Origin: Moraxella sp.
GTDB lineage: Bacteria; Pseudomonadota; Gammaproteobacteria; Pseudomonadales; Moraxellaceae
DNA length: 47,103 bases
Reading direction: 5' to 3'
Assembly: GCF_030525845.1 (NCBI RefSeq)
Contig: NZ_JAUNDY010000014.1
Coordinates: 1 to 47,103, forward strand
In this document: piece after piece, positions 9,124 through 47,103 of the stretch
Layout: the number at the start of each line of letters is the position of its first letter
Position numbering within the stretch: position 1 is the first letter of the stretch
Program-made: the position numbers and the translations under genes
Notes under the pieces: generated by a model
What the model saw: only the letters and a program-made list of their open reading frames with translations
Database searches by the model: none
Told to the model about the DNA's origin: nothing

Positions 9124-9145
9124 CCCCCCCCCCCCCTTTTTTTTT
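9124..9145 (+). repeat. Homopolymer tract C13 followed by T9
   Basis: Thirteen C residues (9124-9136) are followed at once by nine T residues (9137-9145), ending 38 bases before the algR-like start codon. Such tracts are prone to slipped-strand change during replication. Here the tract is outside coding sequence, so any effect would be on transcription or on leader folding. Confidence 0.9.
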
Positions 9146-9183: not shown

Positions 9184-9918
9184 ATGAATATTCTGATTTG
9201 TGAAATAGAGCCATCTTTGGGCAAACACTTGACAACTCTAATCACACTTCTTGGACATGAAGTGGTTGGATTGACTAATCGCCTAGATGAAGCATACAAG
9301 CTAACTTTACAGTACCACCCCGAGATTGTGCTGATAAATGCACATCTGCCACATACCCATGAATTTACCCAAAAACTATCTGACGATTTGACAGCACCGC
9401 CCGCTTTCATCTTTTTTGGCTTAGATGATAGTCATCTTTTGCTAAATGCCTTTAAATGTGAGGCGAGCGATTATTTACTCATTCCTGTTCATGAAAAAAA
9501 CCTGCACCACGCCATACAAAAATGCACTCGCATTAACGCTGCCCAAGAGCAGGCACTAAGCAAACAAGACGAAGACAGCCCTCGCACTCGTCAGTACATC
9601 GCTGCTCGCACTCATCGTGGCGTAGAGCTTATCTCGCTTGCCGATGTATACTACTTTACCGCCGACCAAAAATACGTTAAAGTTCGCCATAAAGGTGGCG
9701 TGGTACTCATCGATGAAACCCTAAAAGATCTAGAAGAAGAGTTTTCAGGCATGATGTTTCGTATTCATCGAAATGCCCTCATCAACCTCAGCTATCTTGA
9801 CTTGTTGGAGACGGTTGATAGCGGACAATACCGAGTGCGTTTTCGGGGCATGTCAGAGACACTCTCTGTATCACGTCGCCATCTGCCAACACTCAGAGAA
9901 AAAATCCAAAACATCTAA
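9184..9918 (+). CDS. algR: AlgR-like LytTR response regulator with a degenerate receiver
   Basis: The 244-residue protein has a receiver-like domain (1-118) and a C-terminal LytTR DNA-binding domain (138-244; RTHRGVELISLADVYYF, then MFRIHRNALINLSYL and SVSRRHLPTLREKI), the AlgR layout. It probably acts as a transcription factor; in Pseudomonas AlgR controls alginate and type IV pilus genes. The receiver lacks the canonical active site. The acidic pair reads C6-E7-I8-E9, the phosphoacceptor Asp is N52 (VLINAHLP), the Thr/Ser position is G79, and the conserved Lys is I100. Phosphorylation is therefore unlikely. The next genes are hemC and hemD, matching Pseudomonas order, but the kinase gene fimS/algZ is absent. 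The symbol marks homology, not proven function. Confidence 0.85.
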   Translation: MNILICEIEPSLGKHLTTLITLLGHEVVGLTNRLDEAYKLTLQYHPEIVLINAHLPHTHEFTQKLSDDLTAPPAFIFFGLDDSHLLLNAFKCEASDYLLIPVHEKNLHHAIQKCTRINAAQEQALSKQDEDSPRTRQYIAARTHRGVELISLADVYYFTADQKYVKVRHKGGVVLIDETLKDLEEEFSGMMFRIHRNALINLSYLDLLETVDSGQYRVRFRGMSETLSVSRRHLPTLREKIQNI

Positions 9919-42328: not shown

Positions 42329-42529
42329 ATGAAACTTAACTGGCACGACAGCCTTGACATCGCCATTGCGTTGGCAGAAAAGCACCCCGATGTCGATGTG
42401 CAATATATCCGCTTTACCGATTTGCACCGTTATGTCTGTGAACTGGACGACTTTGTTGGTGAGCCTGACAAGTCCAACGAAGCAATTTTGGAAGCCATTC
42501 AAATGGCGTGGCTTGATGAGTTGGACTGA
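42329..42529 (+). CDS. iscX: Fe-S cluster assembly protein IscX
   Basis: IscX (YfhJ) is a small acidic protein that binds IscS and modulates Fe-S cluster assembly, possibly as an iron-dependent regulator. The 66-residue product [21 protein letters not shown] through [21 protein letters not shown] matches the family throughout, including the DxxxVxFTDLHxYVxEL pattern. The ATG at 42329 is preceded by AAAGG. It is usually the last gene of the isc operon, but here it stands alone next to queH, which is also a metal-cluster enzyme gene. Confidence 0.93.
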
Positions 42530-42831
42530 TACCACCCAGACAAAATATCTCCGATTGATAAACAAACTTCATATTATTGTAATATCAATTAAACAAAAAT
42601 GATAAATTTATGATAGAATAGACAGCCGAAGGTTGCCCAGCCGTTTTTATTAGTAAATAACCAGCAAGGCAATTGCATGAATTTTATGTGGTTTTGGGCA
42701 ACTTTCGCCCCCCCCCCCCCCGTATTTAATCCGATGAGTGCATTGAGTGGTATGGCTGTTTTTCATGACTTATCAACACCCTTATATAGCCTCTGTTGGC
42801 ATTCATCATTATTGACATTGATGAGAAAATT
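42530..42831 (+). other. Leader region with inverted repeat and C14 tract upstream of the sensory cassette
   Basis: About 300 bases hold no gene. They contain an inverted repeat, CGAAGGTTGCCCA (42627-42639) and TGGGCAACTTTCG (42695-42707), 12 of 13 matching with a 55-base loop. Directly after it comes a run of 14 C (42708-42721). A weak -35-like AACTTT (42700-42705) and TATTTA (42723-42728) would flank the C tract with 17 bases between, but the match is poor and is only a suggestion. Confidence 0.6.
42708..42721 (+). repeat. Homopolymer tract C14
   Basis: Fourteen C residues preceded by TTTCG lie 110 bases before the binding-protein start. The flank resembles the C13 tract at 9124, which is preceded by TGTCG. 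Such a run is long enough to slip at high rate in replication. Confidence 0.9.
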
Positions 42832-43830
42832 ATGATAAAGACAGTGCTAAGTGTTGCTATTGCCACACTAATCTTGACCGCATGTGGTCAAGCTCCTACC
42901 CCAACCAACCCCCAAGATATCGCCTATCCGACCGCTAATGTAGGGGTTAGCATTACTAATATCACCAACCCATTTTTTAAGAGTGCATTTGATGCTTATC
43001 AATCCGAAGGAGATGCTAATCCCTCTTTGACCCTTATCGTTGAACAGGCGGATAATGACCAAAACACCCAAAATACCCAAATTGAAACGATGATCTCCAA
43101 AGGTGCAAAAGCCCTAGTACTCAATCTTGCCGATGTATCACAAGGCAAAGCAATCATTGATAAATATTGTGGTCAGGTTGCTCTTGTGTTTTTTAATCGC
43201 AATCCAGGCGATAAAGCTCTTGCCCAGTGTGATAGAGCCTACTTCGTAGATGGAGATGCCACCCAAGCAGGAGTGCTACAAGGACTAAAAGTTTTGGAAT
43301 TATGGAAAGCCAACCCCAACTGGGACAAAAACAACGATGGTAAAATCCAGTTTGCCATGCTAAAAGGCATTCCAGGCCACGCAGGCGCACAGGCTCGCAC
43401 CAAATGGGCTATTGGTACCATGGAAAACTATCCAACCTTGGGTATTGATGTAGAAGAGATATATGCTGATTTTGCCATGTTTGATAAAGAGCAAGCTCAT
43501 GCATTGGTGTCATCATGGATAACAGAACCAAAGTTTCCCAATGTGGAGATAATTCTTGCCAATAACGACGCAATGGCACTGGGGGCAGCAAAAGCCCTAG
43601 ATGAGGCTCAAATTAAGCTACCAATTTTTGGCATTGATGCCACCGCTGATGGATTAAATGCAGTCAAATCTGGTCAAATCACCGCAACCGTACTCAATGA
43701 TGCCACAGAACAAGCCAAAGTCTCGCTACGTCTTGCTGCTAATCTTGCTGCTGGTACCGACCCATTAGAGGGCATCGACCACAAACTACAACACAAAACC
43801 ATCAACGTGCCTTACCAAGAAGTAAAATAA
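42832..43830 (+). CDS. MglB-like periplasmic sugar-binding lipoprotein
   Basis: A 332-residue periplasmic binding protein of the galactose/glucose MglB class. The start ATG 42832 gives MIKTVLSVAIATLILTAC with lipobox LTAC (Cys18), so it is membrane-tethered, unlike soluble E. coli MglB. The two-lobe fold is evident: VGVSITNITNPFF, KALVLNLAD, a calcium-loop-like DKNNDGKIQF, LKGIPGHAGAQARTKWA, ILANNDAMALGA, FGIDATADG and ATVLNDA. Ligand residues Asn, His, Arg and Asp of MglB are largely kept, but the MglB aspartates at the 14 and 154 positions read Asn and Gly and the Trp reads Phe. So the ligand may not be galactose. No ATPase or permease gene is near; a kinase gene follows 37 bases later. Confidence 0.85.
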   Translation: MIKTVLSVAIATLILTACGQAPTPTNPQDIAYPTANVGVSITNITNPFFKSAFDAYQSEGDANPSLTLIVEQADNDQNTQNTQIETMISKGAKALVLNLADVSQGKAIIDKYCGQVALVFFNRNPGDKALAQCDRAYFVDGDATQAGVLQGLKVLELWKANPNWDKNNDGKIQFAMLKGIPGHAGAQARTKWAIGTMENYPTLGIDVEEIYADFAMFDKEQAHALVSSWITEPKFPNVEIILANNDAMALGAAKALDEAQIKLPIFGIDATADGLNAVKSGQITATVLNDATEQAKVSLRLAANLAAGTDPLEGIDHKLQHKTINVPYQEVK

Positions 43831-43867
43831 CAGGCATATTGACACCAAATATTCAAGAGATAACATA

Positions 43868-46093
43868 ATGACTAATACACATCATAATAACGACACCAAG
43901 CTAAAAGGCTTGGCAAAATACCGCTCTTTAATTCTATTGGCGACCAGCTTTTTTGGTTTGGTTGCGGTACTCTCTGGTGTAACTTATCTAACCACGAACA
44001 AAATCGCAAACGCCACCAAGGAGCTAGAACTCGCCTCCCAACAAACCATCTTGGTGCAACAGCTCTCCAAAAACTTACTTGACCTAAATCTATATCTGAA
44101 TGATTTGACCAACCAAGATATCAACATCTCTGATACAACAGTCTTTGACCCAGAGCAACAAGCCTTGCCACATGGCACTTATTCACTTGATTTGTTACCA
44201 CAGACAGGGATTTATCAATTAGAAGAAATCGGCAAACAAACCCAAACCTTTACCAACATGCTAAATGCCCTAAAACATGGCGGTGTCGCACAAGATGTTT
44301 TGGGTAATGCTGTCAATATCAACACCGTTACCGACCCCAAACTCAAAAAAATACTTGACGAAATTGAAACCATTTGGACACCGTTTTTGGGTCTTTTAAA
44401 TAACTTCGTCAATGACACCAAACAAGGCATCATCAAAAAACAAACCTCCGATTATTTGGTGGACTATGCTCGCCAATACAATCTATCCTTGCAAGCTGAA
44501 ACCATTGAATTTTCAGGTCGCCAAAACGAGCTGATTCAGTCTGTGGCACACCAACTACGCTTGGGGCAAATCGGTGGTATCAGTGTTGCATTCTTGTTAT
44601 TTTTGGCCATCGTCTTTGGTTCTCTTCGTCAGCTGGTTCGCACCGATAAACAGCTTGCTGTTGCCCAAAAACAAACCGATGACATCATGCACACGGTAAA
44701 CGAAGGTCTGTTTTTGATTGACAAAAATCTCATCATCTCCGACCAACACTCCGCCAAGCTAGAAGAGATTTTACACAAACAAAATATCGCTGGACAAAAT
44801 CTCTACGATATCTTAGAAGGCATGATTAGCGAAAAAGACATGGGTACCACCAAACGTTTTATTGAACAGCTGTATAATATTTGGGTGGTTGAAGAGCTAA
44901 TCCAAGACCTAAACCCCCTAAAACAAGTCTCGTTGTCATACATTGCCGACAATGGCGTACCTGCCACTAAGTTTTTAGCATTTAATTTCCTTCGGGTGCT
45001 TGACGAAGGCACCGAAGACATCAAGAGTGTATTTGTCAGTGTTACCGACATCACCAAAGAGGTAAATCTCCAAAATCAAATGCAAAAAGACAAAGAACAA
45101 CACAATCGCCAAATTGAAATGATTAGTTACCTATTGAGTGTTGATGGCAGTCAGCTGACTTACTTTATCAATGAAACCAAAGGACGCATCGAGCGAATGA
45201 ACGATGTGCTTAAAAACCAAAATACAGACAACCCAAAAGCAAAAGCCCAACTGCTGTATCGTGAAATGCACAGCCTAAAAGGCGATGCGTCTGCGGTCAA
45301 TCTAAACGCACTGGTAGACATTGCTCACAGACAAGAAACCACTCTAAAGCAACTTTTGGAACATACCGACCTAAAAGGCAACGACTTTCTGCCCTTTACC
45401 ATCGGTCTAAACGAAATGATGGACATGGTGTCATTTATTGAAAGCCTGATTGGACGACTAAATATCGGTAGTAACCCCCAAAACCTCCCCAATCTTGATG
45501 TACCCACCAACAACGCCCAAACCACCCAACCCCCAAAAGACCACTGGCAAGGGTATTTTACACAATATGCTAATGACATCGCCAAGCGTCAAAACAAGCA
45601 GATCAAAGTACATATAGCAGGCTTTGATGAAGTCAATATCCCAAATGATTTGATGTCTGCCTACAAAGACATTGCCACCCAACTACTCAAAAATGCCATC
45701 GTACATGGTATTGAAAATACTGAAGAACGAACCCATAAAAACAAAGACATTACAGGTCAAATTACCCTCAACCTTAGCGAAGATGCCAAAAATCAAAAAC
45801 TCACCATCAAAGATGATGGTGCTGGCATTAACTGGGAAAAAATCCGCCAAAAAGCTGTGGAGATTGGACAAGCCACCACCGACACCGCCCACAACCTTAC
45901 CCAAAAAGACCTTGTACGCATCATGTTTTTATCAGGCGTATCCACCGCCAAGACAGTAGATGAAGATGCAGGTCGTGGCGTAGGCATGGACATCATCAAA
46001 GCACTGGCAAACAAATACCATGCTAAGATTGGTGTCAGTAGTAAGGCAGACCACTTTACCCAAATTAGCATTACTTTCCCAAAAGACATTTAA
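43868..46093 (+). CDS. Membrane-bound CheA-like histidine kinase with periplasmic sensor, PAS and Hpt domains
   Basis: A 741-residue sensor kinase. Membrane segments at about 18-42 and 233-253 enclose a periplasmic domain of about 190 residues. Then come a PAS-like domain (about 272-395; VNEGLFLIDKNLIISD), an Hpt domain with the phosphorylatable His468 in YREMHSLKGDASAVNL, and a CheA-type ATPase. The ATPase shows LLKNAIVHGIENTEER (N box, about 606-621), DDGAGINWEKI, and FLSGVSTAKTVDEDAGRGVGMDIIKAL. There is no ordinary DHp domain with an H box and no CheW-like domain, so it resembles the Hpt-plus-catalytic part of CheA placed on a receptor. It lies between a sugar-binding protein and a CheY-like gene, so those are its likely input and output. 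I do not recognise a named family with this layout. Confidence 0.85.
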   Translation: MTNTHHNNDTKLKGLAKYRSLILLATSFFGLVAVLSGVTYLTTNKIANATKELELASQQTILVQQLSKNLLDLNLYLNDLTNQDINISDTTVFDPEQQALPHGTYSLDLLPQTGIYQLEEIGKQTQTFTNMLNALKHGGVAQDVLGNAVNINTVTDPKLKKILDEIETIWTPFLGLLNNFVNDTKQGIIKKQTSDYLVDYARQYNLSLQAETIEFSGRQNELIQSVAHQLRLGQIGGISVAFLLFLAIVFGSLRQLVRTDKQLAVAQKQTDDIMHTVNEGLFLIDKNLIISDQHSAKLEEILHKQNIAGQNLYDILEGMISEKDMGTTKRFIEQLYNIWVVEELIQDLNPLKQVSLSYIADNGVPATKFLAFNFLRVLDEGTEDIKSVFVSVTDITKEVNLQNQMQKDKEQHNRQIEMISYLLSVDGSQLTYFINETKGRIERMNDVLKNQNTDNPKAKAQLLYREMHSLKGDASAVNLNALVDIAHRQETTLKQLLEHTDLKGNDFLPFTIGLNEMMDMVSFIESLIGRLNIGSNPQNLPNLDVPTNNAQTTQPPKDHWQGYFTQYANDIAKRQNKQIKVHIAGFDEVNIPNDLMSAYKDIATQLLKNAIVHGIENTEERTHKNKDITGQITLNLSEDAKNQKLTIKDDGAGINWEKIRQKAVEIGQATTDTAHNLTQKDLVRIMFLSGVSTAKTVDEDAGRGVGMDIIKALANKYHAKIGVSSKADHFTQISITFPKDI

Positions 46094-46178
46094 TACGCCA
46101 AGCAAACTTAAAAATTACTACAAAGTTTCTTAGACTTTGACCTTTATGCACAAAAACATTCTCATGCAATAGAAGTTT

Positions 46179-46197
46179 AGCCTGATACTAACAGGCT
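46179..46197 (+). other. Small hairpin in the kinase/receiver intergenic gap
   Basis: AGCCTG (46179-46184) and CAGGCT (46192-46197) can form a 6-pair stem with a 7-base loop, in the 168-base gap between the kinase stop and the receiver start. There is no T run, so it is not a standard terminator. It may trim or attenuate the transcript. Confidence 0.35.
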
Positions 46198-46261
46198 TAT
46201 CAGTCTAACAACGTGTAGTAAATTTCTACTATGGTAGATATAACATCACAGGAAACCAACA

Positions 46262-46639
46262 ATGACATACAAACTTATGATTGTTGATGATTCTAACATC
46301 ATCAGAAACCGCATTGAAAAAAGCTTCAAACACAGCGAAATCCAAATCGTTGGTACAGCCACTAATGGCGTAGAAGCCCTCCAAAAATTCTCCGAACTAA
46401 ATCCAGATTTTGTTACGATGGATTTGACCATGCCCGAAATGGACGGATTAGAATGCATTCAACGTATCGTAGCACAAGGCACAGGTGTAAGTATTTTGGT
46501 AGTCTCTGCTCTAACGGATAAAGACACCGCCCTAGAAGCCCTACAATACGGTGCTAGAGGATTTATCTGCAAACCATTTGGCGAAGAGGAGCTAAATGCC
46601 GCCATCACACGCATGATTAATCTTAAAAAGAAAAAATAA
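46262..46639 (+). CDS. CheY-like single-domain response regulator
   Basis: A 125-residue lone receiver. All active-site residues are in place: D9 and D10 in IVDDS, phosphoacceptor D54 in TMDLTMPEMDG, S82 in VVSA, and K104 in CKPF. There is no DNA-binding or enzyme output domain, so it must act by binding a partner when phosphorylated, as CheY or PilG/PilH do. A GGAAACC ribosome site lies upstream. It follows the CheA-like kinase after 168 bases and is closed by a terminator, so it is the likely phosphoryl acceptor from Hpt His468. The target is unknown; the type IV pilus twitching machinery is one possibility in Moraxella. Confidence 0.92.
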   Translation: MTYKLMIVDDSNIIRNRIEKSFKHSEIQIVGTATNGVEALQKFSELNPDFVTMDLTMPEMDGLECIQRIVAQGTGVSILVVSALTDKDTALEALQYGARGFICKPFGEEELNAAITRMINLKKKK

Positions 46640-46647
46640 TCTTACCT

Positions 46648-46674
46648 AGCTGACGTGCATTGCGTCAGCTTTTT
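46648..46674 (+). terminator. Intrinsic terminator after the CheY-like gene
   Basis: AGCTGACG (46648-46655) and CGTCAGCT (46663-46670) make a perfect 8-pair stem with a 7-base loop, followed by TTTT. It closes the sensory cassette. Confidence 0.82.

Positions 46675-46967: not shown

Positions 46968-47103
<136 letters not shown>

Follow-up and report, generated by a model that had tools for sequence, protein, structure and literature searches.

A probable CheW-less chemosensory relay in Moraxella, built from an MglB-like lipoprotein, a receptor-fused CheA-type kinase and a lone CheY

In the chemotaxis pathway that runs from MglB through Trg, CheW and CheA to CheY, MglB docks on a four-helix receptor; the receptor, CheW and CheA are separate proteins, and MglB is shared with an ATP-binding cassette (ABC) transporter. 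Other sensor kinases are built on other cores: LuxQ and TorS are HisKA-type hybrid kinases, and LytS has a core of another kinase class and a regulator that binds DNA. Kinases fed by binding proteins are known from XylFII-LytS, TorT-TorS and LuxP-LuxQ (PMC6321045) and also from P. aeruginosa (PMC11113362; both cited from extracts), and an extract of a survey of 13,673 CheA sequences gives P1, P3, P4 and P5 domains in all of them, with no sensor domain of their own (PMC10782961). The locus analyzed here lies in a 47,103-nucleotide stretch of DNA from Moraxella sp. (NZ_JAUNDY010000014.1; hereafter the window), which is one entire contig (C16) of a 1.89 Mb genome (G000) of 44 contigs that is 93.65% complete. 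Three genes at 42832-46639, all on the plus strand and separated by gaps of 37 bp (lipoprotein-kinase) and 168 bp (kinase-cheY), encode an MglB-like substrate-binding lipoprotein, a receptor kinase and a CheY-like single receiver (Table 1), and they probably constitute a CheW-less chemosensory relay in which the signal would pass from the lipoprotein to the four-helix sensor of the kinase, on to its Hpt domain and from there to CheY. An earlier note on this DNA had recognized the three genes as neighbors, which they are; the start that it gave for the block, 42532, falls in upstream non-coding DNA, and the block has its first ATG at 42832. A non-exhaustive search of the open-access literature, subscription papers excluded, found no description of a binding protein that feeds a CheA-core receptor kinase, nor of the kinase-CheY-CheX family introduced below.

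The idea that receptor and kinase are merged in one protein is borne out by the kinase chain, which combines two hydrophobic runs in the hydropathy profile (residues 18-42 and 230-258) with Pfam matches to Hpt (E 1.8e-07, residues 430-494) and HATPase_c (E 4.7e-10, residues 603-740). The ATPase is of the CheA type, as residues 564-738 match CheA P4 structures with E 6e-27 and 12 of 12 PDB matches are CheA. Hpt is present in all 27 aligned kinase relatives and H468 is invariant in all 27, and at an E threshold of 0.05 these same relatives give no match to H-kinase_dim (P3), HisKA or CheW; HMMER misses many P3 domains, according to the same survey extract (PMC10782961). Among 17 aligned kinases only a variable linker lies between Hpt and P4, and the chain ends shortly after P4, without a C-terminal CheW (P5) domain. 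The domain list first drawn up for this protein therefore stands as regards Hpt with H468, the CheA-type ATPase and the lack of DHp and CheW matches, and its PAS domain is unconfirmed: residues 257-415 are conserved among family members (51% mean identity per column, 21 sequences), three PAS models each matched 1 of the 27 relatives, weakly, and a profile search of the PDB with this region found no PAS domain. Because the kinase lacks a CheW domain and, unlike CheA, has a sensor of its own (two transmembrane runs and a periplasmic domain), it is by its predicted domain makeup not a CheA; it would act like a receptor and a CheA in one chain.

The kinase family occurs without CheW. Sensor relatives are found in 27 of 82 Neisseriaceae genomes, and CheW gives no match in any of the 82, control genomes having matched in 7 of 14 cases. 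This distribution, together with the missing CheW and P3 matches in the kinase relatives, makes it very improbable that the kinase is a CheA which gained a sensor and works inside a Pil-Chp array through CheW, a reading that would fit the presence of CheW domains in all seven genus genomes with full-size family kinases, mostly within a PilL/ChpA-like system, as against 3 of the 15 others (in total 10 of 22 genus genomes, nine of which hold one copy inside a long PilL/ChpA-like frame). A CheW-coupled CheA was rejected on the lack of CheW matches in the 27 relatives and the 82 Neisseriaceae genomes, and dependence on Pil-Chp was rejected since CheW, found in all seven genus carriers, is found in none of the Neisseriaceae.

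The AlphaFold2 model of the sensor (mean predicted local distance difference test score, pLDDT, 81) is a four-helix bundle, and its fold matches include PilJ, NarQ and the LytS-N chain of XylFII-LytS (5xsj). PilJ-type sensors are found in 10 of the 27 kinase relatives.

The earlier note had staked its reading on the three genes occurring together in relatives, and they do so, with the binding protein adjoining the closest sensors. Within the genus, binding protein and sensor are both present in 5 of 22 genomes, adjacent each time, and both absent from the other 17. Of 299 sampled genomes of the taxonomic family 6 contain the binding protein, and a fragment interrupted by stops is also present in G082. 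The sensors that match with E below 1e-47 likewise number 6; they lie in these same genomes, each of them adjacent to the binding protein; each of 33 further genomes has a single weaker sensor match (E 3e-8 to 1e-3) and none has a binding-protein match. Among the 82 Neisseriaceae genomes 15 sensors match at E 3e-46 or better, followed by a gap to 3e-18, and 14 of these 15 adjoin a binding protein (upstream and in the same orientation in 12, divergent in 2), as against 0 of the 15 weaker sensors examined as loci. The flanks of these loci reach no further than 1.5 kb either way, and a more distant binding protein would be missed. Four Neisseriaceae cassettes are themselves part of the profiles used for the sensor (A5) and the binding protein (A8); when those are excluded, adjacency is 10 of 11. 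Fisher values for the counts take no account of relatedness. In one genome, G368 (L212:6578-8614), the kinase-adjacent binding protein consists of two Peripla_BP_4 domains in one chain and is divergent from the kinase.

Comparison of genomes G001 and G018 at the same locus shows flanking DNA that is 93-96% identical, a CheY that is 96% identical and a kinase core that is 85% identical in DNA and 88% in protein, with sensors that share 17% protein identity. The stretch without a match in place begins where the Roadblock gene ends, continues to kinase codon 260 and comprises the binding-protein gene and the sensor with both transmembrane runs; the G001 sensor is instead 53-54% identical to the sensors of the window, G003 and M. 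oblonga. A 165-bp piece 5' of the G001 binding-protein gene (L025) is 80% like the kinase-cheY spacer of G018 and is perhaps a trace of the route of module exchange. A comparable mosaic is present within a single genome, G015 (L028:4559-11950), where two kinase-CheY pairs lie in tandem and only the first has a binding protein: the two cores are 72% identical and the two sensors 19%, and the paired sensor is 38-44% identical to the other paired sensors of the Moraxella group.

Trees of a quick type were built from a set of 30 kinases (G036 and G024 dropped), and the groups submitted to the approximately unbiased test were chosen after viewing the alignment. The sensor and core trees conflict. 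The sensor tree unites 12 sensors (10 paired and 2 from G117) on one branch with support 99, rejects grouping G001 with G018 and G002 (p 1e-10) and weakly rejects grouping G015 with its tandem neighbor (p 0.027), and the core tree rejects the 10 paired kinases as one clade (p 8e-5). Over 9 cassettes, one of two near-identical cassettes from Neisseriaceae metagenome-assembled genomes (MAGs) being omitted, binding-protein distances track those of the sensors (r 0.78, p 0.0015) but show no such relation with those of the cores (r 0.13, p 0.31). Over 19 cassettes, from which G368 with its tandem binding protein and L206 with none are omitted, the correlation with sensor distances is r 0.83, and the partial correlations are 0.68 for the sensor and -0.17 for the core. 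Co-occurrence, swap, trees and distances thus support treating the binding protein and the sensor domain as one unit, in line with the earlier suggestion that the binding protein feeds the periplasmic domain of the kinase.

Several observations pull in the other direction. G117 has two diverged sensors (E 1e-26 and 2e-20) that belong to the clade of the paired sensors but adjoin no binding protein, and the second Alysiella copy (L206) adjoins none either. The sensor tree, which has long branches (G015b above all), weakly rejects the 10 paired sensors as a group without the G117 pair (p 0.030). Binding-protein distances over the 19 cassettes correlate with core distances as well (r 0.65), and the sensor model matches designed helical bundles at Z scores similar to those of its natural matches.

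The lipoprotein matches Peripla_BP_4 with E 8e-43 and has glucose/galactose-binding proteins (GBPs) as its best PDB matches (E 5e-74); its lipobox, LTAC18, was recognized by eye, and its score with the MglB model, 274.6 bits, is under the equivalog cut-off of 420. When it is aligned with GBP, 7 of the 10 positions that we take to be the sugar contacts are kept (F16, N91, H152, R158, N211, D236 and N256), and so is the Ca loop. Because seven contacts and the Ca loop are kept and three contacts are changed, a sugar-like ligand is likely and specificity for glucose or galactose is not. Even the word sugar may be wrong, given the changed contacts: D14, D154 and W183 are altered in 6 of 6 Moraxella-group binding proteins, and the cassette protein of Alysiella crassa (L116:4946-5974) keeps 1 of the 10 contacts. 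The Alysiella protein retains the Ca-binding loop, and its sensor stays within the family. It is unlikely, though to be kept in view, that the lipoprotein is a partner of the kinase without being a sugar sensor, either binding some other ligand or reporting the state of the envelope with no ligand, as in QseG-QseE; if there were no small ligand, the retention of 7 of 10 contacts in six Moraxella-group proteins would be unexpected.

No cognate mglA/mglC pair was found in the window genome at its 93.65% completeness, in agreement with the original description of a binding protein without transporter genes, which such a pair elsewhere would have contradicted. The sole PF02653 permease found in G000 adjoins an ABC_sub_bind lipoprotein and an ATPase-like open reading frame (ORF), and such a permease occurs in 21 of 22 genus genomes with or without the cassette (neighborhood read in G000 and G004); a cognate mgl transporter was rejected, as this permease belongs to another transporter. 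Across the 22 genus genomes the only Peripla_BP_4 matches over the cut-off are the 5 cassette proteins. A mgl-like operon (binding protein, ABC ATPase and PF02653 permease) does exist in Alysiella, on a contig other than that of the cassette, and its binding protein is a different gene from the cassette protein. The binding-protein tree places 18 of 19 cassette proteins on one branch with support 100, apart from the Alysiella transport protein and Salmonella GBP; the nineteenth, G375b, is nearer the transport proteins. That the lipoprotein is an ordinary transport binding protein sharing an unlinked permease, with its place beside the kinase reflecting co-regulation only, is therefore hardly to be expected: its closest similarity to MglB, the Alysiella operon and the chance that a transporter was missed in an incomplete genome speak for it, but the permease in G000 has a partner of its own, the Alysiella transport protein is another gene, and the lipoprotein co-occurs with the sensor domain and has moved together with it.

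The receiver was correctly described as a complete CheY-like protein with D54: it matches Response_reg with E 1.4e-29, and D54 is invariant in 11 of 11 aligned sequences. FliM was found in 0 of 22 genus genomes, and the CheY target in the genus is therefore not the flagellar switch; this rejection of a flagellar output applies to the genus, to which the FliM search was confined, and not to the Neisseriaceae. An output via type IV pili is a guess, by analogy with PilG in Pil-Chp as described in an extract of PMC12632253.

The route that we infer for the signal is as follows. The lipid-anchored, MglB-derived binding protein would capture a small ligand, which is probably a sugar or a derivative of one, and would dock on the membrane-distal tip of the periplasmic four-helix bundle of the kinase. 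The signal would then cross the second transmembrane run and the PAS-like stretch and determine how fast the CheA-type ATPase phosphorylates H468, from which the phosphoryl group of the built-in Hpt would pass to D54 of the neighboring CheY. Phosphorylated CheY would act on a protein target elsewhere; as FliM is absent from the genus, our best guess for this target is a protein of the type IV pilus or one that governs polarity.

Sequence comparison places the kinase, as one branch among others, in a wider kinase-CheY-CheX family that also has branches paired with SBP_bac_3 lipoproteins. The wider family, the SBP_bac_3 pairing and the C14 tract described below had all escaped the earlier note. 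Four versions of the neighborhood are found: (a) MglB-like lipoprotein, kinase and CheY; (b) SBP_bac_3 lipoprotein, kinase, CheY and CheX, in Moraxella and Psychrobacter; (c) kinase, CheY and CheX; and (d) kinase next to a Roadblock protein and a small GTPase, CheY being present in some cases and absent in others. Neighbors were counted by tblastn in 80 named loci, the best of at least 561 confirmed in GTDB genomes. These best 80 comprise 45 kinase-CheY-CheX loci, 24 SBP_bac_3-kinase-CheY-CheX loci, 7 MglB-like-kinase-CheY loci without CheX, 1 kinase-CheY locus and 3 kinases alone; a CheY-like match lies within 1.5 kb 3' of the kinase in 77 of them, and 69, none of the MglB-like version, have CheX close to the kinase. 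The 7 MglB-like loci belong to Moraxella macacae, M. oblonga, a Moraxella MAG, Alysiella crassa, a Conchiformibius MAG and two other Neisseriaceae MAGs. CheX occurs in 7 of 22 genus genomes, exactly the seven with full-size family kinases, and in all 6 Neisseriaceae loci read CheY follows the kinase directly, with no CheX. The window genome itself holds two further full-size family kinases (contigs C13 and C39) and a 2,749-residue PilL/ChpA-like frame. Roadblock/LC7 and small GTPase pairs govern polarity elsewhere. A Roadblock/LC7 protein and a small GTPase-like protein lie directly 5' of the kinase without a binding protein in a conserved locus (L021:7523-8536, L026, L027). In G002 (L026:7072-7851) an insert of ~0.78 kb, whose ORF is transposase-like by eye, breaks the start of cheY, which is intact in G001 and G018.

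The C14 tract upstream of the lipoprotein gene and a G11 tract in a comparable position, 96 bp 5' of the G015 orthologue (L028), suggest phase-variable expression of the cassette. Runs of 11 C did not arise in 100 shuffles of the window, and among the six Moraxella-group cassettes the remaining four lack a tract of this kind within 300 bp upstream. A role of the C tract as promoter spacer was dropped, as the upstream promoter-like site would place it in the 5' leader. Similar tracts stand before other genes: a G14 tract (L034:3550-3563) is found ~400 bp 5' of the SBP_bac_3 lipoprotein-kinase-CheY-CheX cluster of G003, and in the window a C13 tract (9124-9136) followed by a T run lies 47 bp 5' of a LytTR-domain gene (9184-9918) whose receiver match stays below the cut-off and which is a further candidate for a phase-variable regulator on the contig.

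A broader generalization is offered tentatively, as a conjecture that we hold to be rather doubtful: the cassette would exemplify a CheW-free chemosensory class of one-protein receptor/CheA-type kinases, with swappable sensors, each with its lipid-anchored binding protein (MglB-like or SBP_bac_3-like), on a common Hpt-ATPase core plus CheY and often CheX, which would direct motility by type IV pili in Moraxellaceae and Neisseriaceae, some cassettes being phase-variable via a poly-C/G tract. If the relay is real, it would be a minimal CheW-independent relay of the chemotaxis type, present in a bacterial family in which none of 82 genomes matched CheW. As the natural domain swap ties the binding protein to the sensor, a handful of proteins would be enough to study the identity of the ligand, the docking on the receptor and the target of CheY.

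The features of the locus are collected in Table 1. The hairpins and promoter-like sites are about as frequent in the window as chance would give: 5 terminator-like hairpins were observed against 4.2 in shuffles, and 13 promoter-like sites against 11.0. At the far end of the window an ORF (46986-47103) is truncated by the contig end; by eye it resembles the start of a catalase-peroxidase, and its 39 residues match no Pfam model.

Table 1. Positions of the cassette genes, their domains and adjoining features in the window.
Feature	Position	Strand	Basis or remark
MglB-like substrate-binding lipoprotein, 332 aa	42832..43830	+	Peripla_BP_4 match, lipobox LTAC18
Receptor kinase, 741 aa	43868..46093	+	Hpt and HATPase_c matches, alignment of relatives
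Sensor module: TM1 (first transmembrane run) aa 18-42, periplasmic four-helix bundle, TM2 aa 230-258	43868..44656	+	Hydropathy, AlphaFold2, fold matches
Family-conserved cytoplasmic stretch, aa 264-415, PAS-like by eye, unconfirmed	44657..45112	+	
Hpt domain, aa 430-494	45155..45349	+	Phospho-acceptor H468 at 45269-45271
CheA P4-type ATPase, aa 564-741	45557..46090	+	N609/H613, DDG649-651, GRGVG702-706
CheY-like single receiver, 125 aa	46262..46639	+	D54 at 46421-46423
Terminator-like hairpin, 10 pairs, 3' of cheY	46648..46670	+	Not above shuffle mean
Promoter-like site TAAACA-18-TAGAAT, TG ahead of second hexamer	42590..42619	+	Consensus match only
C14 homopolymer, candidate phase-variation tract, 110 bp 5' of lipoprotein ATG	42708..42721	+	
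iscX-like gene	42329-42529	+	PF04384; upstream of cassette
queH		-	PF02677; upstream of cassette

Set beside the described systems, the cassette resembles XylFII-LytS in that its binding-protein gene is adjacent to, and co-occurs with, that of a sensor kinase; in XylFII-LytS the sugar-binding protein sits on the periplasmic domain of the kinase and the sensor is helical (PMC6321045, in extract), and a corresponding complex would form here. The two differ in that the core of the cassette kinase is an Hpt domain with a CheA-type ATPase and its output a single-domain CheY. LuxP-LuxQ and TorT-TorS likewise have a periplasmic binding protein bound to a sensor kinase (PMC6321045, same extract), but lack the CheA-type core and the lone CheY. 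With CheA the kinase shares Hpt, a P4-type ATPase and a CheY next door, with CheX near the kinase in other versions of the family; unlike CheA it has a sensor, and neither P3 nor a CheW domain is detected in it. Pil-Chp with ChpA offers a chemosensory output to non-flagellar motility (PMC12632253, in extract), which for the cassette is a guess, and PilJ-type sensors are present among the kinase relatives; there, however, the methyl-accepting chemotaxis protein, CheW and the multi-Hpt CheA are separate, and in the window genome such a frame is on contig C15. With MglB-Trg chemotaxis, finally, the cassette has in common an MglB family protein, a four-helix receptor on which it would presumably dock and CheY as the endpoint, and it differs in that receptor and kinase form one chain.
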